Source of the DNA: a virus
Reading direction: 5' to 3' (one strand)
Length of the DNA stretch: 24,991 bases
IMG/VR virus record: IMGVR_UViG_3300011114_001043
Coordinates: 1 to 24,991 of that record
Translations under genes and position numbers: made by a program
Shown here: positions 7,111-24,664 of the stretch, one piece after another
Numbering within the stretch: position 1 is the stretch's first letter
Layout of the letters: every line of letters starts with the position of its first letter
The notes under the pieces: model-generated
The model's database searches: none
What the model was told of the DNA's origin: nothing
Seen by the model: the letters and a program-made list of their open reading frames with translations, nothing else

Positions 7111-7410
7111 ATGTCTGAATTTACCGAAGCACTCAAAGAATCGCTCGCCGTTTTGCACGGGCAAACAGGCACCACCGTCACCATCGGATCCACCGCCGTC
7201 ACCGGCATCCTTTCCACCATCACCCGCAAAGAGAATGTTGAACTAGGCGGATTCGATCTCGATCTCAATAGCACCTTCACCATCGATATCTCTTCACTAG
7301 CCACCGCCCCCACCATCGGCTCTGTCCTAGTGGCGAACTCTGTCTCTTATCGGATCGTCACCATCGACACCGGCACCGGTTCCTACGTCCTCGGCCTTAG
7401 AGAAAAGTAA
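7111..7410 (+). CDS. Head-tail connector / stopper-like protein
   Basis: A 99-residue beta-rich protein follows the coat gene. Residues 20-45 (TTVTIGSTAVTGILSTITRK) and the C-terminal part (IGSVLVANSVSYRIVTIDTG, then SYVLGLREK) fit the pattern of small head-tail joining proteins of the gpFII type, which bridge the portal and the tail. No Shine-Dalgarno sequence is seen; the leader holds the GAAATCCT motif. It is the last head gene before the accessory block at 7418. The structural role is inferred from size, beta pattern and position. Confidence 0.65.
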   Translation: MSEFTEALKESLAVLHGQTGTTVTIGSTAVTGILSTITRKENVELGGFDLDLNSTFTIDISSLATAPTIGSVLVANSVSYRIVTIDTGTGSYVLGLREK

Positions 7411-7417
7411 ACTCGTT

Positions 7418-9109
7418 ATGGCACCCCGAAATCCTCCTAAAATATCAATCTACTTTATCGCAGGCCATGAGGCCCAGTTCATCGGCAGGGCGTTGGCCGC
7501 CTTCAAACCATACTGCGACGAGATCATAGTCGCACTTGCCCAAGGTAACCGGCCGGACGACGGCACCCGCGAGATTGCTGAGAAAGCTGGCGCCACCGTC
7601 ATCACCTACCACAACTCATCCACTGCCGCCGATTGGCCCCACGTCGATAATTTTGCCCATGCACGCAACTGCGCACTCAATGCGTGTACTGGTGACTACG
7701 CCGTCTGGTTCGATTGCGACGATCTACCCGGCACAGACCTCGATAAATGCTTCAGGAGGGCCGTAGAAGCGTTTGAAAAAGATTCAGCCCTCGGCATCTA
7801 CGCAGGCGTCTACGCCGTTTTAAACGCCAAACTCAACCCAGTACGCGAGAGGATGGTCCGAAGATTGCCAGGTGGCGGCTGGTCTGGCACTTGGCACTAC
7901 GCCGTCCATGAAGCGCTTCTGCCTATCGCTGGGCTGAAATCTGTAGGGGAGCAGAACGTCTGGTGCGAGCACCACTGCGGTGGATACAAGCCCAACAGTG
8001 CAGACCGTAACCTGCGCATCCTTGGCGGCGAACTCGGTCAGGCGGGCAAGTACGCCTACTACTACCAGCAGGAACTATTTTTAGGGAACAAGCGTAACGA
8101 GAGCGGCGTCTGGTCCCGCGTCGCCGCCTACTGGCCCAAGCAGGAACCCACCCTGCAATACGAAGCCATGTGCAACTATGCGGCCGCTCACCCCGATCGT
8201 GATACCCGCATGCGGCTTTATGCCGAGGCCCATCAGCTTCAGCCCGGCCGCAGGGAAGCACTTTACTACATCGCCCGCGAGGAAGCATCCGTGGGCAGAT
8301 GGGGCGCCGTTTACTACATGCTCAAAGCGGCCATGGTCCAGCCCGATCCCGGCATATCAATTTGGAACTGCCAGCGATCGATCTACGACTTTGAGTGCAT
8401 CGACCTTTATATCTGCGCCGCCCGTATGACAGGCGACATGGCGGAAGTAGAAAAGATCGAACCCGCCTGGCGTAAACAGTGCCCTGTTAAAATTTCCGTC
8501 CTTCACGCTACCCGCGGCCGTCCGCAGGAAGCCATTAACGCCCGAGTCCTGTGGATGAAGAAAGCGTCTCACCCGCAGAACATAGAGTGGATCTTCTCCT
8601 GCGATAACGACGACCCTACCTCCGCCGTCCTCAAGCCATGGAATCCTGTTATGGGCGAGGGGAGCTGCGTAGCCGCTTGGAACAGGGCGGCCGATAAAGC
8701 CCAGGGAGAGATCCTTATCCAAGCTAGCGACGATTGGGACCCACCCCTCTACTGGGACACGATTGTCACGGAACGCCTGGGCGATCTGAGTAAGCCCAAA
8801 GTCTTAGCAATCTCCGACGGGCACCGCACCGACGAACTCCTTTGCATGGCCATTTTAACAAAAGCTCGGCTTATCCAGCAGAGCTCACTTTTTGCGAATG
8901 AGTACGACGCCTGCTCGGGCATCTTTAGCGATGACGAGTTTAGCCACAGGGCAAAGAAAGACGGCGTCATCGTCCAGGCTAAGGACGTCGTCTTCACCCA
9001 CAATAATCCAATCTTCACGGGTGCACCGCAGGACGCGGAATTTAAAAAGCATAACGCAAAAGAAAACTACGTCCTCGGCGAAAAGATATTTAAGGAAAGG
9101 AACCCGTGA
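7418..9109 (+). CDS. Large protein with two glycosyltransferase-2-like domains
   Basis: The 563-residue protein has an N-terminal GT-A domain (about 8-190) related to SunS-like family 2 glycosyltransferases: ISIYFIAGHEAQFIGRALAA, DDGTREIAEKAGA, a FAHARN segment, and the acidic WFDCDD at 97-102 as the likely nucleotide-sugar metal site. The middle (about 200-350) is helical, perhaps TPR-like. A second GT-A-like domain (about 357-560) starts KISVLHATRGRP and has SCDNDD at 394-399 and QASDDWDP at 435-442. It may transfer sugars to protein or another sugar; acceptor and donor are unknown. It opens a run of coupled genes; its end overlaps the next start by four bases (GTGA). Only a weak purine stretch precedes the ATG. 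Confidence 0.85.
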   Translation: MAPRNPPKISIYFIAGHEAQFIGRALAAFKPYCDEIIVALAQGNRPDDGTREIAEKAGATVITYHNSSTAADWPHVDNFAHARNCALNACTGDYAVWFDCDDLPGTDLDKCFRRAVEAFEKDSALGIYAGVYAVLNAKLNPVRERMVRRLPGGGWSGTWHYAVHEALLPIAGLKSVGEQNVWCEHHCGGYKPNSADRNLRILGGELGQAGKYAYYYQQELFLGNKRNESGVWSRVAAYWPKQEPTLQYEAMCNYAAAHPDRDTRMRLYAEAHQLQPGRREALYYIAREEASVGRWGAVYYMLKAAMVQPDPGISIWNCQRSIYDFECIDLYICAARMTGDMAEVEKIEPAWRKQCPVKISVLHATRGRPQEAINARVLWMKKASHPQNIEWIFSCDNDDPTSAVLKPWNPVMGEGSCVAAWNRAADKAQGEILIQASDDWDPPLYWDTIVTERLGDLSKPKVLAISDGHRTDELLCMAILTKARLIQQSSLFANEYDACSGIFSDDEFSHRAKKDGVIVQAKDVVFTHNNPIFTGAPQDAEFKKHNAKENYVLGEKIFKERNP

Positions 9110-9852
9110 TTCACACCCACAACGGTCTGCGTCTTGGGGACAATCTCGTCCAGCTAAACTTCCTCCGCCGTCTTAGCCTGGCCAATCCAGAACTAGAGAT
9201 CACCCACTACTATAATCCGACCTTTTGCAAGGTGGAGGAGCTAGACCCACTCCGCACAGAACGTATTTTACTGCGCCCTATCAGTGAGGCGCCCGTTGGA
9301 AGCATTGATTCTTGGCGTAATGCAGGCGGCCACTGGGAACGTCACCCCGATAAATTAAACTTTGCCCAGTTCCATCTCGATTGGTTTGCGGAACTTTCCA
9401 GCAGGATGGCGGTAAAGAATCCGATCACCACGGTGGACGATCTTCTCTTCGATTATCCAGCCCTCACAGAAAACGTGGAAAACTTTGACGCCATCGTTAT
9501 CAATTCACCACCGCTTTCTGGTCAGTTTCAAAACTTCTCCGCTCAAGGCTTTATCGATCTTGTTCGACTCCTGCAAGTAAAGGGCATGCGCGTACTATCC
9601 ACCGCCCCCACTGGGATCTGTGCCTGCTCTCAACCGCACGACGTAAGCTGGATCGGCGCCGCATCTACCACCGCCCAGCTCATCGTCGGTGCCTCCACCG
9701 GCCCTAGTTGGCCCTGCTTTAACGTCCACAACCGCGCCGCCCTTCACCTCATGTGCGCCGACGTGGAGAACGTCGTCCTTACCCCACGCGGTCGGGTTGC
9801 CCGTAGCCCGCATCACGCCATTTCTATCCTCGAGGAGTTGGGAATCCTATGA
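9106..9852 (+). CDS. Glycosyltransferase family 9-like protein (GT-B)
   Basis: This 248-residue protein starts from GTG, 4 bases after a purine-rich Shine-Dalgarno stretch (AAGGAAAGGA). It begins with GLRLGDNLVQLNFLRRLS, similar to the GD...L..L+ opening of family 9 (heptosyltransferase-type) enzymes, and near its end has IVGASTGPSWPCFNVHNRAA, like the donor-site D-T/S-G-...H segment of that family. It is shorter than typical members (about 320-350), and the first half of the donor domain may be reduced. It is coupled to its neighbours on both sides by four-base overlaps. It probably adds a sugar or binds a nucleotide sugar; the specific reaction is unknown. A non-catalytic relative is possible. 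Confidence 0.6.
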   Translation: MIHTHNGLRLGDNLVQLNFLRRLSLANPELEITHYYNPTFCKVEELDPLRTERILLRPISEAPVGSIDSWRNAGGHWERHPDKLNFAQFHLDWFAELSSRMAVKNPITTVDDLLFDYPALTENVENFDAIVINSPPLSGQFQNFSAQGFIDLVRLLQVKGMRVLSTAPTGICACSQPHDVSWIGAASTTAQLIVGASTGPSWPCFNVHNRAALHLMCADVENVVLTPRGRVARSPHHAISILEELGIL

Positions 9853-10376
9853 CCTACAAAGGCCAGCTCACGGCCGCGATGAACTTGCTGGCTGCCGATA
9901 CTGCCACCCGCTTTATCGGGTACGGCGTGAAGATTGGCGGCCGGGCCGCAGGAACCCTTAGCACTGTGCCGGATTGCCAGTTGGTTGAGACTCCTGTGGC
10001 CGAGAATCTCATGGTCGGCCTAGCCACCGGCATGAGCCTAGCTGGCCTTAAGCCCATCGTTTTTATTGAGCGTATGGATTTTATTTTAAACGCACTGGAT
10101 GCGATCGTTAACCACCTCAGCGCCGCCCGTGATATCTCCTGCGGTGAATTTACCCCCGCGGCCATCCTACGCGTCGTCGTCGGTAATAAAACAAAGCCGC
10201 TCTACACCGGCCCCACCCACGTCCAAGACTTTACCGATTCCGTGCGGGCCATGGTCAATTTTCCCGTTTTAAAACTAACCACCCCAGACGAGATCCTGCC
10301 CGCGTACCAGGATGCGCTGGATGCGTTAAGCCTGGGGCGCTCCACCATGCTCGTCGAAATGAAGGATCTATTATGA
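9849..10376 (+). CDS. E1-beta-like / transketolase pyrimidine-binding domain protein
   Basis: The 175 residues correspond to the pyrimidine-binding half of thiamine-diphosphate enzymes such as pyruvate or acetoin dehydrogenase E1-beta and C-terminal transketolase. The key segment is VETPVAENLMVGLATGMSLA at 46-65; E52 is the Glu expected to activate the cofactor. LKPIVFIERMDFILNALDAIV then matches the usual GLRPI...F...A.D.I run. The C-terminal domain of normal E1-beta (total about 330 residues) is missing. The alpha-like partner is encoded at 11467, with a radical SAM gene between. It would join the partner to decarboxylate or transfer a two-carbon unit. Coupling is by ATGA overlaps on both sides; a GAGGAG lies 11 bases before the start. 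Confidence 0.85.
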   Translation: MTYKGQLTAAMNLLAADTATRFIGYGVKIGGRAAGTLSTVPDCQLVETPVAENLMVGLATGMSLAGLKPIVFIERMDFILNALDAIVNHLSAARDISCGEFTPAAILRVVVGNKTKPLYTGPTHVQDFTDSVRAMVNFPVLKLTTPDEILPAYQDALDALSLGRSTMLVEMKDLL

Positions 10377-11464
10377 AACAAAACAAATACAGCGACCTCA
10401 AAATCTTTTCGTTCCCAGAAAAGATTGCCAGCTTTCGCGACGATATTATCACCGCCCCAATTTACGTGCGGGTAAAGCCAATCAACATCTGCCAGCACGC
10501 TTGTCGTTTCTGCACCTACTCGGACGGATCCACCCGCAAGAAGGATCGGCCAGATCTTCACCTCCAATCAGGCATGCATACCGCCATGAACGAGAAAGAC
10601 ACCATGCCCAAGGAAAAAGCACTTCAGCTCATGGACGATCTGGGCGCCATCGGTACTAAGGCCATTACCTTCTCAGGTGGTGGCGAACCGCTACTGCATA
10701 AAGATATAGCCGTCATCATGGGCCGCGCCATCGAGGCCGGTCTGGATTTGTCGATGATCACAAACGGCCAGAGCATGTCCGGACTGCGGGCGGAACTATT
10801 AGGGCAGGCAAAGTGGGTGAGGGTATCAATGGACTACACCAGCTCCGAGCAGATGGTCGCTAGTCGCAACGTGCCAGAGTCTTGGTTCGACGGCGTCATC
10901 ACTAACCTCGAGCAATTCGCCACAACCAAAACTCAGTCCTGTGATCTGGGTGTAAATTTCATAATTACAAACTACAACTACGAGGGTCTAGTCCCTTTTG
11001 CAAGGCGGCTTAAAGATATCGGCGTGGAAAACGTCCGCTTCTCACCCGTCTACGTGCAGAACTTTAAAGAGTACCATACCCCCATCGCCACCCGTGTGCG
11101 CGAACAACTGGCCGAGTGCCAATCCTTTTGCGATTCAGACTTTACCATTAACACCACCTACGATCTGGATAGTCCTAGCAAATCTCCTCTGCGCCCGTTT
11201 CACCGTTGCCTCTACGCTCAGGCCGCCTGCGTCGTCGGTGCAGATCTAGATATCTACGCCTGCCATAACACCGCCTACAGCAACCACGGCCGGATCGCCT
11301 CTATGAAAAACCAAAGCTTTGCCGAGGCATGGTTTAGCGAAGAGGCGCGGGCATGGCATAAGAACTTTAACCCAGGGGTGAGCTGCCAACACGAGTGCGC
11401 TAACCACGCCAAGGTCGCACTCTTTGAAAAACTAGCCACCGATAGCCACGACGCTTTCGTCTAA
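10373..11464 (+). CDS. Radical SAM enzyme with C-terminal auxiliary cysteines
   Basis: This 363-residue protein has the radical SAM signature CX3CX2C (C40, C44, C47) and the SAM-binding SGGGEP at 101-106. C279, C286, C297, C338 and C342 at the C-terminal end, with the CVVGADLDIYAC pattern, recall SPASM or twitch regions that hold an extra iron-sulfur cluster, often in enzymes that act on peptides or sugar compounds. The start is supported by AAGGA six bases upstream, and the ATG overlaps the E1-beta-like stop. Lying between the two TPP-enzyme halves, it probably works in the same pathway, for example making or changing a sugar or side chain. Substrate unknown. Confidence 0.9.
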   Translation: MKQNKYSDLKIFSFPEKIASFRDDIITAPIYVRVKPINICQHACRFCTYSDGSTRKKDRPDLHLQSGMHTAMNEKDTMPKEKALQLMDDLGAIGTKAITFSGGGEPLLHKDIAVIMGRAIEAGLDLSMITNGQSMSGLRAELLGQAKWVRVSMDYTSSEQMVASRNVPESWFDGVITNLEQFATTKTQSCDLGVNFIITNYNYEGLVPFARRLKDIGVENVRFSPVYVQNFKEYHTPIATRVREQLAECQSFCDSDFTINTTYDLDSPSKSPLRPFHRCLYAQAACVVGADLDIYACHNTAYSNHGRIASMKNQSFAEAWFSEEARAWHKNFNPGVSCQHECANHAKVALFEKLATDSHDAFV

Positions 11465-11466
11465 AA

Positions 11467-12084
11467 ATGAAAACTAAGAGCGAGCTGATCGGCTTTGAAC
11501 TACGCATTAAAGATATCTTTGAGCAGGGGAAACTGCCTTATCTCCTGCACCTATGCGGGGGGAACGAAGAACAGCTCATCGATATCTTTAAAAACATTTC
11601 CCCAGGGGACTGGATCTTCTCTAGCCACCGCTCCCACTACCACTATCTGCTCGCGGGCGGAGATCCCGCCGTGCTCGAGCAGATGATTAGAGACGGCCGG
11701 AGCATGTTTGTCTTTGACCGTAAATTAAACTTTTACACCTCCAGCATCCTTGCAGGCACCTGCGGGATCGCGGCCGGCGTAGCCGCCAGCCTCAAAGAGC
11801 AGGGCAGTGGTAAGCGCGTCTGGTGCTTTCTGGGCGACGGGGCGGAAGACGAAGGACACTTTTACGAGGCGGTAAACTACGTCGATGGAAAGGATCTACC
11901 CTGCACCTTCATCATCGAGGACAACGACCGCTCTGTGGATACGTCTAAAGCCCAGCGGGGAAGGGGTCGCATCCAGTGGCCTGATTGCGTAAGGCGCTAC
12001 CACTACACCCCCACCTACCCACACGGCGGGGCAGGGTGCAAAACCATGGTTACCTTTGATTCAGAAATCCGTCCCATCTGGTGA
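11467..12084 (+). CDS. E1-alpha-like thiamine-diphosphate-binding protein
   Basis: The 205 residues match the cofactor-binding half of E1 dehydrogenases. The GDG...N motif runs from GDGAEDEGHF at 123-132 to N153 in IIEDND, with 27 residues between the GDG and the Asn, within the usual range. SSHRSHYHYLLAGGDP at 52-67 matches the E1-alpha segment that lines the active site. It is much shorter than bacterial E1-alpha (about 320-400 residues); the regulatory phosphorylation-loop region appears shortened and E2-binding parts are not evident, so it need not belong to a dehydrogenase complex. The gene starts two bases after the radical SAM stop and ends the accessory block. A split-transketolase reaction is an equally good reading. 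Confidence 0.87.
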   Translation: MKTKSELIGFELRIKDIFEQGKLPYLLHLCGGNEEQLIDIFKNISPGDWIFSSHRSHYHYLLAGGDPAVLEQMIRDGRSMFVFDRKLNFYTSSILAGTCGIAAGVAASLKEQGSGKRVWCFLGDGAEDEGHFYEAVNYVDGKDLPCTFIIEDNDRSVDTSKAQRGRGRIQWPDCVRRYHYTPTYPHGGAGCKTMVTFDSEIRPIW

Positions 12085-12099
12085 CAAGGTAGCGAATAT

Positions 12100-12546
12100 A
12101 TGGCCGCCGTCACCATGCTCGATCGTTTAATCGAAGCCGCTTTTAAAGAGCTTATATCGCCCGTAGTTACCGCTCCCGCCTACCACCTTTCCCACGATCA
12201 GTCGGAGAACATGCCGCCCAGCATCGTGATAAAGGCGTCACTGGGCTCAGAGGAGCCGGTGCGGGGCAGTGGCGTATTCAGCGTGCCGGTAGAGATAATC
12301 TTCGACGAGAGCTACGACGACGCCACCCCCGCGTCTCACAGCGCCCAGTGTAGCCAGATCCTGCAGTGCTTCTACGATGCGACCAATCTGTCCACTAGGC
12401 TTAACGCCACCACCGCCATCGGCTCCGCCCGCACCTACAGCGCCAAGCTAGAATCTAGCGAGGCCAGCGCCGATAATGAGGAGCGCACATTCACACAAAA
12501 CTACAAGCTTAGCGTTATCGCCTATCCCGGTTCCATCGCGAGTTGA
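12100..12546 (+). CDS. Probable tail completion / tail terminator protein
   Basis: A 148-residue alpha-beta protein lies just before the putative tail tube gene, the usual place for the protein that ends tail growth and joins the tail to the head. It opens with MLDRLIEAAFKELISP, then has VPVEIIFDESYDD and a closing TQNYKLSVIAYPG strand pair, a pattern seen in small tail terminators. No single motif proves this. A TGACA that holds the preceding stop codon lies 13 bases before its ATG, a weaker form of the repeated start motif. With this gene the structural order resumes after the accessory block. Confidence 0.55.
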   Translation: MAAVTMLDRLIEAAFKELISPVVTAPAYHLSHDQSENMPPSIVIKASLGSEEPVRGSGVFSVPVEIIFDESYDDATPASHSAQCSQILQCFYDATNLSTRLNATTAIGSARTYSAKLESSEASADNEERTFTQNYKLSVIAYPGSIAS

Positions 12547-20843: not shown

Positions 20844-21932
20844 ATGCCCTTGTATTCGGCAACTTGCCCCTTGCCTAAGAACCAGATGTTGCGGAGGCAT
20901 CAAGCCTCATTCTCTCCCTCCAACATATCTGGCCTATCTCTTTGGTTAAAAGCTGACGCAGGGGTAACGACAGACTCAGCCCAAGTTGTTACACAAATAG
21001 TTTTAAGCGGAGGGTGGGGTTCGTATGATATAACAGAACCAGTACCTAATTTCATATCAGCAGATGGAACATATACTAGGCCTGGAACAAGTTGGGACGA
21101 GACATTTTATAATGGTGATAACTATATTTGGTATTCGGAAAATGATTTACAATGGTTTTTACATTTAGCAGGAGATTTTAATGATGGGAATAATGTTTTT
21201 CAGAACGACGGAGTAGGTGGATACACAACAAGAAGGGATGAAAATTGGAGTTATCAGTATAACGGTGTTGTTATGGGTTCCCCAGCAACTAGCACATCAA
21301 CAAACGCAGGAACTGGTGTTGATGCTTGGCAAGATCAGAGTCCAAATGGATACATTTTTGTACCAGATTATATCAGCAAAGACATAACTCTTTCATCCTC
21401 AGTTGCAGGGCTTAATAATAAACCAGCTATATCATTTCAAACTCTTAATGATAACGGAGATGTTGGTCTTTTTAACAACGATGTCTTTGTAGGAAAATCA
21501 GTATTCTTGGTTTATATCTTAAATAGCGTTGATAATTTTGTATACTCTATTCTTTACGAAAACAGTGGAATAAATAATTACACTAATTATGGGTCTAACG
21601 AGTTTGGAGGATATTTTAATGGTTTCTTTGACGCAAATACTCCAAGCACAATAGATACTAAATATCTCAGAACAACAATAACAGAAGATGGGACATCTAT
21701 TAATTATTACACAAATGGCTCAAGTGATGGCAACCCAACTGGTGATGGTTTTTACACAAGATCAGAAGTTGTTGTAGGCAACGGAGGGGCAAGAATGGCT
21801 GGCGGGAATCCGTCAATTAACCAACCCTTCCAAGGGTACTTAGCAGAGGTTGTGGCGTATGACGTTGTGTTGACCGCTCCTCAACGCCAGCAAGTCGAAG
21901 CGTATCTAAACACCAAATACGCAATCTACTAA
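20844..21932 (+). CDS. Lectin-like (LamG/concanavalin-fold) tail adhesin
   Basis: The 362-residue protein has the signature of LamG-like jelly-roll domains: ISGLSLWLKADAGVTTDSAQ at the start, VDAWQDQSPNGYIFVPDYIS, NNKPAISFQTLND in the middle, and the closing GYLAEVVAYDVVLTAPQRQQ followed by VEAYLNTKYAIY. Normally the LKADAG and WxDQSxNG parts are only about 10 residues apart; here about 100 residues (Tyr, Trp, Asn and Gly-rich) are inserted between them. These and the C-terminal half are strongly AT-rich. It probably binds a host surface glycan. AAGGAG six bases before the ATG is one of the best ribosome sites in the window. Confidence 0.8.
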   Translation: MPLYSATCPLPKNQMLRRHQASFSPSNISGLSLWLKADAGVTTDSAQVVTQIVLSGGWGSYDITEPVPNFISADGTYTRPGTSWDETFYNGDNYIWYSENDLQWFLHLAGDFNDGNNVFQNDGVGGYTTRRDENWSYQYNGVVMGSPATSTSTNAGTGVDAWQDQSPNGYIFVPDYISKDITLSSSVAGLNNKPAISFQTLNDNGDVGLFNNDVFVGKSVFLVYILNSVDNFVYSILYENSGINNYTNYGSNEFGGYFNGFFDANTPSTIDTKYLRTTITEDGTSINYYTNGSSDGNPTGDGFYTRSEVVVGNGGARMAGGNPSINQPFQGYLAEVVAYDVVLTAPQRQQVEAYLNTKYAIY

Positions 21933-23583: not shown

Positions 23584-23924
23584 CCGAATCACCCGCCATT
23601 CATAGCCCTATGTCTGAGGAGCACGAAAAGCACCTCGCGGGGATTATCAATGATCTAGCTAGGGACGTGTCCAAAAAGTATCGCAAAGGGCAAGAGGAGC
23701 ACGGTGGCGCCCTGTGGCGTCGGCCCGTGTGGAAAGATGCGTGGGACGAAGTTTTGGATCTGTGCACGTACGTCCACACCCTCCGGCTACAGCTTTCCGT
23801 CATTGCGGAGCTCGCCCTGCAAGGCGCGGCCGACGACTCACTCGCAGCCTCCCAGAGCAGGGAAAACTGTAGACAAATCTTAGCAGTCCTACAGGGGTTC
23901 CCGTCCGCCCAGGACAAAAAGTGA
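23580..23924 (+). CDS. MazG-like nucleotide pyrophosphohydrolase-like protein
   Basis: A 114-residue helical protein with KKYRKGQEEHGGALWRRPVW at 35-54 and DEVLDLCTYVHTLRLQL at 58-74. The Y-x-x-G-x-x-x-H-G-G-x-L then E/D-x-x-D-L-x-x-Y pattern is that of phage MazG-like proteins, in which acidic residues bind magnesium to cut nucleoside triphosphates. Here DEVLD supplies D58, E59 and D62, but one typical acidic helix motif may be reduced, so activity is not certain. The start is an ATGA overlap with the endolysin; the end overlaps the next GTG. Confidence 0.6.
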   Translation: MTESPAIHSPMSEEHEKHLAGIINDLARDVSKKYRKGQEEHGGALWRRPVWKDAWDEVLDLCTYVHTLRLQLSVIAELALQGAADDSLAASQSRENCRQILAVLQGFPSAQDKK

Positions 23925-24664
23925 ACGTAGTTAAAAAATGGAAGAGGTGGCTGGCAGTGTCCTGTTCCCACGGTCACCTGGCTAACCCGGCCGCCCTTAA
24001 GGCCGCTCTTGAAATGAAGAAGCGGTGGAAGCCAGACGTCACCATGCACCTTGGCGATTTTCTGGATCTATCCAGCCTGATGGGTAGCGCCCGTAAAGAT
24101 CCTGATAATCCTGAACGATCGATCTCCATCCGTGAAGACTTCGACGCTGGGCTAAATTTCGTCCGCCAGCTGGGCGTAAACTACCTTTTTGAAGGGAATC
24201 ACGAACATAGACTCACAGCATTACAGACCTCGCCTAGCGCCATCGTGGCGCACTGTTGCATGTCTGCAAAGTCGGAGATCTACAACCTGTGCAAGGATCT
24301 AAAGGCGGAGTGGGTGCCGTACGATATCGAGAAGGGCTGGCGGGATCTGGGGGGCACCGCGTTTGGTCACGGCTATATGTTTAACGAATCATCTGCCAGG
24401 GACCACGTGGAAATGCTCCGCAAACCAGTAGTCTTTGGGCATCTGCATCGGGTCGATCGAGCGGCCGGGAGGAGCATAGGCGCCCCGGTGGGCTGGACAA
24501 TTGGTTGCCTAGCGGATATCGGATCTATGCACTACGCCAGGAGAATGAGATCCGTCACACGCTGGCAACACGGCGTCGCCTGGGGCGAGTACTCCGACGG
24601 AGGGCAGGGGTGCACCGTGCAAGTCTTGTCGCCAGTGGAGGGGCAATGGCGCTACCCAATTTAA
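23921..24664 (+). CDS. Calcineurin-like metallophosphoesterase
   Basis: The 247-residue protein has the metallophosphoesterase motif set: SCSHGH at 14-19, HLGDFLDLS at 43-51, EGNHEHR at 91-97, GHGYMF near 149, and GHLHRVD near 173. The usual first motif DxH reads CSH here; as I recall, related phage proteins share this Cys, so it may be a family feature and not damage, and metal binding could differ. The substrate (nucleotide, nucleic acid or phosphoprotein) is unknown. It starts from GTG in a four-base overlap. The last 19 bases overlap the next gene. Confidence 0.85.
   Translation: MNVVKKWKRWLAVSCSHGHLANPAALKAALEMKKRWKPDVTMHLGDFLDLSSLMGSARKDPDNPERSISIREDFDAGLNFVRQLGVNYLFEGNHEHRLTALQTSPSAIVAHCCMSAKSEIYNLCKDLKAEWVPYDIEKGWRDLGGTAFGHGYMFNESSARDHVEMLRKPVVFGHLHRVDRAAGRSIGAPVGWTIGCLADIGSMHYARRMRSVTRWQHGVAWGEYSDGGQGCTVQVLSPVEGQWRYPI

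Follow-up and report, generated by a model that had tools for sequence, protein, structure and literature searches.

The window analysed here is the complete IMG/VR fragment IMGVR_UViG_3300011114_001043 (24,991 nt), in which a block of five genes at 7418-12084, all on the plus strand, lies between a putative head-tail connector and a putative tail-completion gene. The block encodes, in this order, a double GT-A glycosyltransferase (GT), a GT9-fold protein, the pyrimidine-binding chain (PYR) of a thiamine diphosphate (ThDP or TPP) enzyme, a radical SAM enzyme (rSAM) and the diphosphate-binding chain (PP) of the ThDP enzyme. Our comparison of viral loci demonstrated that one oxidase is strictly paired with one TPP enzyme and that both halves of this unit are interchangeable: the rSAM is replaced by a zinc alcohol dehydrogenase (Zn-ADH, or ADH), and the E1-type TPP pair by a transketolase (TK)-type pair. 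In our reading, to which we give a likelihood a little short of even, the block occupies an exchange slot of the late operon and serves as a cassette that branches a sugar and transfers it. The vitamin-B1 enzyme probably adds two carbons (C2), and the cartridge-like swapping points to variation of an unusual sugar carried by the phage particle or by the host.

One oxidase and one TPP enzyme form an interchangeable unit

The rSAM and ADH scans were both made without a TPP protein as query. The first-pass annotation of this DNA had named random co-occurrence of these genes elsewhere as an outcome that would speak against a functional block; the co-occurrence proved not to be random, a TPP gene standing beside 164 of the 165 rSAM open reading frames (ORFs) within 6-6.5 kb, with the exception at a contig end. 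All 65 distinct ADHs of the ADH-only scan had a TPP pair within the same distance (58 of E1 type, 7 of TK type), and an rSAM was found beside none of them. Sorted by TPP type, the distinct oxidases comprised 78 ADHs with an E1-type pair, 7 ADHs with a TK-type pair, 69 rSAMs with an E1-type pair and 7 rSAMs with a TK-type pair; both oxidases together never occurred, and a single rSAM, at a contig end, was without a TPP gene. All four combinations of oxidase and TPP type exist (about 160 distinct loci). Seen from the TPP enzyme, 98 distinct PP sequences had an rSAM close by in 67 cases, a Zn-ADH in 22, neither in 9 and both in none, and a tree of 46 PP representatives requires at least 4 switches between rSAM and ADH along supported branches, among them the swap in L066 and L070 described below.

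The replacements can also be followed in individual loci. L066 and L070 keep the split layout, GT-GT9-PYR-x-PP, with an ADH and an FkbM-type methyltransferase replacing the rSAM, and two phages with a fused PP-PYR (L099 and L107) carry the rSAM and no ADH. The TPP half is exchanged in L226, L147, L213, L223 and L229 (four contigs very near the lineage of the window), where the E1-type pair is absent and a TK-type pair is present; in the L226 group the TK-type PP (PF00456, 4.3e-12) and PYR (PF02779, 1.6e-22) lie between the GT9 gene and the rSAM, and a methyltransferase is also present. The combination of rSAM and TK-type pair is also found in the more distant phages L244, L341 and L342. When the E1-type PP was aligned with the TK-type PP, hhalign gave a probability of 41% over 50 columns only, and family searches place the latter with the transketolases. 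The unit thus consists of a single oxidase and a single ThDP enzyme, either of which is replaceable. A short-chain dehydrogenase/reductase (SDR) gene adjoins 18 of the 65 ADH loci.

A slot for cassette exchange follows the constant glycosyltransferase

The exchange slot (9110..12099, no strand assigned) extends from the stop codon of the GT to the start of the next structural gene, and was delimited by the breakpoints in seven pairwise DNA comparisons and by cassette counts. The census was taken over phages that share their coat, connector and GT genes, and was counted by distinct GT sequences. The slot contained an E1-type pair with rSAM in 43, a TK-type pair with rSAM in 4, a methyltransferase with an unnamed 221-aa protein in 8, and other methyltransferase/DUF5672 genes with the 221-aa protein in 9. 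The flanking proteins are mostly 93-99% identical between cassette types (85-87% in one case), and the GT itself is unchanged when the cassette behind it varies, with 93-98% amino acid identity across cassette types and 85% in one phage. In five pairs the left-hand limit of DNA identity lies no more than 1-2 nt from the stop codon of the GT, and in the two TK pairs it coincides with the GT9 gene end; on the right, identity returns 1-23 nt ahead of the next start codon.

The 221-aa protein (L149, 9357-10022, and its equivalents) ends the methyltransferase-type cassettes, belongs to no named family and starts with a GT9-like RLGD motif. A common family with the 248-aa GT9-like protein of the window found no support in hhalign (probability 0.6%), and the 221-aa protein was left unnamed.

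A predicted minimal ThDP enzyme and a twitch-type radical SAM enzyme

PYR (9849..10376, plus strand, 175 aa) is an E1-beta-like TPP pyrimidine-binding domain (Transket_pyr PF02779, 3.1e-6), the profile of which matches E1-beta structures at 1e-15. PP (11467..12084, plus strand, 205 aa) is an E1-alpha-like TPP diphosphate/Mg-binding domain (E1_dh PF00676, 9.6e-16) that matches pyruvate dehydrogenase E1-alpha structures at 3e-19 and, in family searches, additionally the N-terminal domain of DXS. In alignments of 22-23 diverse relatives the catalytic Glu of PYR (E52, within an invariant AEN) and the GDG motif of PP (position 123) are invariant and N153 of PP is nearly so, which bears out the first-pass observation that the TPP residues are kept. 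The PYR chain stops where the C-terminal transketolase domain of E1-beta would start, and this third domain is absent in all relatives aligned, as it is in the TK-type PYR. Both halves match the fused PP-PYR family phrog_34187 (PHROGs, function not annotated) at 1.6e-44 and 4.1e-73. The fused forms (phrog_34187, L062, S-SM2) run PP then PYR, which is the order of E1 and TK enzymes and not that of decarboxylases; a phosphonopyruvate or sulfopyruvate decarboxylase identity was rejected on this ground and because no phosphoenolpyruvate mutase was noticed in the loci read. Plasmid-borne E1 proteins, including those of Streptomyces, are among the matches listed and are only about 30-38% identical. 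No E2 or E3 partner was found in the 25-kb window or in the neighbourhoods of relatives that were read; the earlier remark that none is near holds for the 25-kb fragment only.

The rSAM (10373..11464, plus strand) is a proposed sugar dehydrogenase with a twitch/SPASM-like C-terminus. It matches Radical_SAM (PF04055, 9.3e-14) and, just below the cut-off, SPASM (8.6e-4). The cysteines of the CxxxCxxC motif in its partial TIM barrel (C40, C44, C47) and the further C279, C297, C338 and C342 are all invariant in the aligned relatives, and four extra cysteines are the number that would be expected for one auxiliary cluster. The nearest folds to its predicted model are SkfB, DesII and BlsE (Z 20.6-22.1), with SuiB also among the best; DesII and BlsE are sugar enzymes. 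In a 199-kb viral contig (L055, IMGVR_UViG_3300037993_001242) the rSAM gene at 7151-9274 contains an intein (Hint_2, 1.7e-7; starting CLVAGTRVV and ending VVHN), which sits immediately ahead of the third Cys of CxxxCxxC.

Glycosyltransferases and gene junctions

The constant GT (7418..9109, plus strand, 563 aa) has two GT-A-type regions, residues 18-139 and about 358-547, with matches to Glycos_transf_2 (PF00535, 8.9e-9), to phrog_13126 and, for the second region, to phrog_14945 (1.7e-5). The following gene (9106..9852, plus strand, 248 aa, GTG start) is the first of the exchangeable cassette and encodes a protein with a predicted GT9 (heptosyltransferase-like) fold. Its AlphaFold model (pLDDT 89.4) gave eight Foldseek matches with E <0.001, all of them GT9 (TibC, WaaC, 3tov). 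The model fits WaaC, WaaF, TibC and 3tov along the whole chain with Z 13.3-14.4, exceeding other folds (for WaaC, Z 14.4 and rmsd 3.8 over 231 residues). In contrast to the heptosyltransferases WaaC, WaaF and TibC, with which it shares about 10-13% identity, it has 248 aa instead of 315-390 and no match to Glyco_transf_9, to any other Pfam family or to any other family searched, and because of the missing Pfam GT9 match we name it GT9-like only. The two glycosyltransferase-like proteins of the first-pass annotation were thus recovered, one by family match and one by model.

The five ORFs, their coordinates and the three four-base overlaps described earlier agree with the ORF list and the junction sequence. 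The overlaps are GTGA at 9106-9109, ATGA at 9849-9852 and ATGA at 10373-10376, and the fourth junction is a 2-base gap ahead of 11467.

Distribution among phages

A scan with the PP protein found 146 viral stretches that encode PP. A search for the same gene set in other phages, as the first-pass annotation had proposed, returned over 100 viral loci in which the five genes stand in this order with the same structural genes on either side, about 60-98% identical (overlapping contigs counted). PYR-rSAM-PP is present in very large phage genomes too, a 735-kb record among them. The isolates S-SM2 and P-TIM68, and other phages, carry a fused PP-PYR behind a Zn-ADH within clusters of sugar-nucleotide and lipopolysaccharide (LPS) genes. 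A kinase resembling HldE/RfaE domain I is found, for example, in L100, L101, L105, L268 and L330, in several of them with an HldE-C-like nucleotidyltransferase.

In cellular genomes the PP family is rare (1 of 395 and 1 of 292 genomes in two phyla, centre genomes only), and no bacterial home locus was found there. Among the matches listed, the rare cellular copies L085, L086, L087 and L089 (from Deltaproteobacteria and archaeal metagenome-assembled genomes) have PP-PYR beside other rSAM paralogues and among glycosyltransferase genes, in the order SDR-PP-PYR-rSAM in L087. Six viral contigs (L109-L114) encode divergent PP (41-43%) and PYR (28-31%), mostly about 2-4 kb apart, and lack both the main-family rSAM and the ADH; in L109 two NAD-dependent epimerases lie between PP and PYR, and another rSAM/SPASM gene is close by.

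Proposed route to a C2-branched sugar

From the gene content, motifs, folds, pairing, interchangeability and exchange boundaries that were computed, we infer a sugar substrate, an oxidation as the rSAM reaction, a C2 donor and a glycan target. The rSAM would abstract a hydrogen from a carbinol carbon of the sugar and pass the second electron to a putative auxiliary cluster held by its four further cysteines, so that a ketone or an aldehyde results; a Zn-ADH with NAD(P) would do the same in other phages. The PP and PYR chains would then form a minimal ThDP enzyme that joins a two-carbon unit to the carbonyl. The E1-type enzyme would take this unit from pyruvate, as an acetyl anion equivalent, and the transketolase-type enzyme would add a hydroxyacetyl unit. 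In some relatives the SDR could reduce, or the methyltransferase methylate, the branched product. The constant two-domain GT and the GT9-fold protein would finally assemble the glycan, most likely on a virion protein, which is favoured as the target because the genes are located among head and tail genes. Swapping the whole cassette, or either enzyme half, would alter the sugar.

Alcohol oxidation is most plausibly what the ADH and a twitch-type rSAM with four auxiliary cysteines have in common, and we take the rSAM as an alcohol oxidant because a Zn-ADH replaces it and because BtrN is a precedent. BtrN, a twitch rSAM in which four Cys bind an auxiliary cluster, converts an aminocyclitol alcohol to a ketone (PMC9012708). 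The phage rSAM resembles it in the twitch-type core and in four cysteines that may hold such a cluster, and differs in fold score, BtrN reaching Z 14.4 against 20.6-22.1 for DesII, BlsE and SkfB. In other organisms the alcohol oxidation of BtrN is carried out by an NAD-dependent dehydrogenase. C2 branching is proposed because two kinds of two-chain ThDP enzyme have been reported or suggested to branch keto-sugars in this way in antibiotic pathways (PMC12247030), and these are the TPP types that are swapped in the phages.

The idea that an unusual sugar or acyl group is made and attached late in infection divides on this evidence. The sugar part is supported by the GT-A and GT9 partners and by an oxidase/TPP pair that resembles a C2-branching unit, whereas nothing backs the acyl part, no acyltransferase, E2 or E3 having been found. 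The first-pass interpretation is thus partly supported as a whole; it did not contain the lack of the third PYR domain throughout the aligned members, the rSAM/ADH and E1/TK replacements or the exchange slot. More doubtful, though still a real possibility, is the wider proposal of a combinatorial phage system in which an interchangeable oxidase and an equally interchangeable minimal ThDP enzyme would yield C2-branched sugars, and in which cassette exchange in one lineage would bring about an O-antigen-like switching of virion glycans.

Several points weigh against the C2-branching cassette. The pairing counts are counts of related sequences and not of independent events, and only the tree count deals with kinship. 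Among the 9 distinct PP sequences with neither oxidase close by, 3 have other rSAM paralogues and 6 are divergent. An HldE-like kinase stands beside 62 of the 65 distinct ADH loci and beside 0 of 65 split rSAM-type loci, which means that the ADH pathway departs from the rSAM pathway at some point. The rSAM model is of moderate quality (pLDDT 78), and BtrN is outside its closest matches. One GT9 gene (about 94% DNA identity) accompanies both E1-type and TK-type pairs, which leaves two options for its product, acceptance of two donors or action ahead of the branching. The virion target is based on gene position.

Comparison with known systems

C2 branching of sugars and the single parts of the cassette have precedents. 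The alpha-KADH2 enzymes, which are E1-alpha/beta-type ThDP enzymes of the pathways of aldgamycin, kibdelomycin and others, put acetyl branches from pyruvate onto keto-sugars (PMC12247030), and in antibiotic pathways the acetyl branch is sometimes reduced afterwards (PMC4753412), with which the SDR near some ADH units is consistent. Compared by description, KbDH-alpha/beta, AviB1/AviB2 and Pau11/Pau12 are two-subunit E1-type ThDP enzymes of a sugar pathway that make a C2 branch, as proposed here (PMC12247030, PMC4753412). An E1-alpha/beta-type pair beside an oxidoreductase and sugar genes, which is a trait of alpha-KADH2, is also found in the phage loci. The alpha-KADH2 subunits of antibiotic producers are of full E1 type, whereas the enzyme of the window has a PP of 205 aa and a PYR of 175 aa, lacks the third domain, is phage-borne and comes with an rSAM or a Zn-ADH. 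In miharamycin and amipurimycin biosynthesis, split transketolases come after an oxidoreductase, as in the scheme proposed here, and hydroxyacetyl branching is their proposed role (PMC12247030); in the phages, the TK-type pair replaces the E1-type pair in the same slot and with the same rSAM family. YerE of yersiniose biosynthesis likewise carries out a ThDP-dependent acetyl transfer onto a keto-sugar of a surface glycan (PMC12247030), but it is a single-chain flavoenzyme of the decarboxylase superfamily and not of E1/TK type.

Phage systems offer partial parallels. The cyanophage LPS clusters of S-SM2 and P-TIM68 contain the same-family fused PP-PYR (phrog_34187) behind a Zn-ADH, and differ in being fused, in lacking the rSAM, in carrying an HldE-like kinase and GmhA, and in lying outside the structural module. 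In mycobacteriophages Che8, Corndog and Myrna, phage glycosyltransferases modify capsid and tail proteins (PMC12363180); phage-encoded GTs are the trait in common with the window, where a virion target is putative, and comparable sugar-making genes are not described in the parts of that source consulted. In the literature searched, we found no description of the combination of these genes in phages, nor of the minimal ThDP pairs, the double interchange or the exchange slot of the phages.

From the two-by-two interchange a function open to testing follows for phage genes that now bear the label unknown (phrog_34187) or "transketolase central region", and likewise for part of the cyanophage LPS clusters, the function of which was left open, with stuffer DNA as a possibility (PMC3037559). 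It predicts a new minimal ThDP architecture, an rSAM that acts as a sugar dehydrogenase and for which a Zn-ADH can substitute, and a structural operon of phages in which glycan types are switched. The ADH version is carried by the isolates S-SM2 and P-TIM68, so the claim is open to laboratory testing.

Alternative explanations

The main rival to virion decoration is LPS-core modification, in which the same chemistry would be directed at the host to block superinfection or the adsorption of progeny to debris; we consider it unlikely but deserving of attention. The GT9 fold is nearest to the LPS heptosyltransferases WaaC and WaaF, and GT9 enzymes work on the LPS core, yet TibC, which fits the fold just as well, acts on a protein. 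Relatives of the ADH type do lie within cyanophage LPS-gene clusters (PMC3037559), but the block of the window is located in the structural operon, where late expression gives little time for LPS remodelling, and it includes no membrane or flippase gene and no protein with a long hydrophobic segment. The GT9 fold would also suit a scheme that we find rather improbable, in which the TPP pair turns an aldehyde supplied by the oxidase into a free ketose (a 1-deoxyketose in the manner of DXS, or a heptulose in that of transketolase), followed by an ADP-heptose-like route and GT9 transfer with no keto-sugar branch. Such a scheme fits the match of PP to DXS and the neighbours of ADH-type loci (HldE-like kinase, HldE-C-like nucleotidyltransferase, GmhA and epimerase), and an ADP-heptose-like substrate is a lead. 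None of the 65 split rSAM-type loci has the kinase or isomerase, however, and neither do the ADH swaps L066, L070 and L074, and an SDR adjoining the TPP gene suits a branch ketone better.

The remaining alternatives are far less probable than these. A peptide or virion-protein maturase of the SkfB/SuiB kind, with the TPP genes as unrelated cargo, would agree with the fold matches of the rSAM, but the overlapping genes leave no room for a small precursor ORF, a Zn-ADH replaces the rSAM, and a TPP gene is always present except at the contig end; we give this very little credence. Gene clusters for the hypermodification of phage DNA can include an rSAM and glycosyltransferases, and the block might accordingly serve hypermodified DNA bases; this is highly improbable given the GT9/GT2 folds, the sugar-nucleotide, kinase and methyltransferase genes beside the relatives, and the loci read, in which no base-modification genes were seen. 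Just as improbable is an auxiliary role in central metabolism as a reduced pyruvate dehydrogenase, to which the E1-type sequence would point, since E2 and E3 are missing from the fragment, the third domain of E1-beta is lacking, transketolase-type pairs interchange with the E1-type pair, and the partners are glycosyltransferases.

Structural flanks and other features of the window

Upstream of the block, family searches identified a terminase, a lambda-type portal and a P22/phrog_283-like coat protein, and downstream of it a tape measure protein. The left flank (7111..7410, plus strand) is the putative head-tail connector, with weak matches to PF05354 (0.0014, below the cut-off) and phrog_82 (0.088). 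The right flank (12100..12546, plus strand), the putative tail-completion gene, is kept beside the slot in all variants and gave no match in family searches. Of the flank labels given earlier, tail completion is accordingly positional and without family support, and the connector rests on a match below the cut-off. A promoter and terminator scan gave fewer sites than shuffled sequence. Farther downstream, 20844-21932 may encode a lectin-like or receptor-binding protein (weak Laminin_G_3 match of 7e-5, under the cut-off), and a calcineurin-like phosphoesterase (PF00149, 7.4e-5) is encoded at 23921-24664, close to the right end of the fragment.

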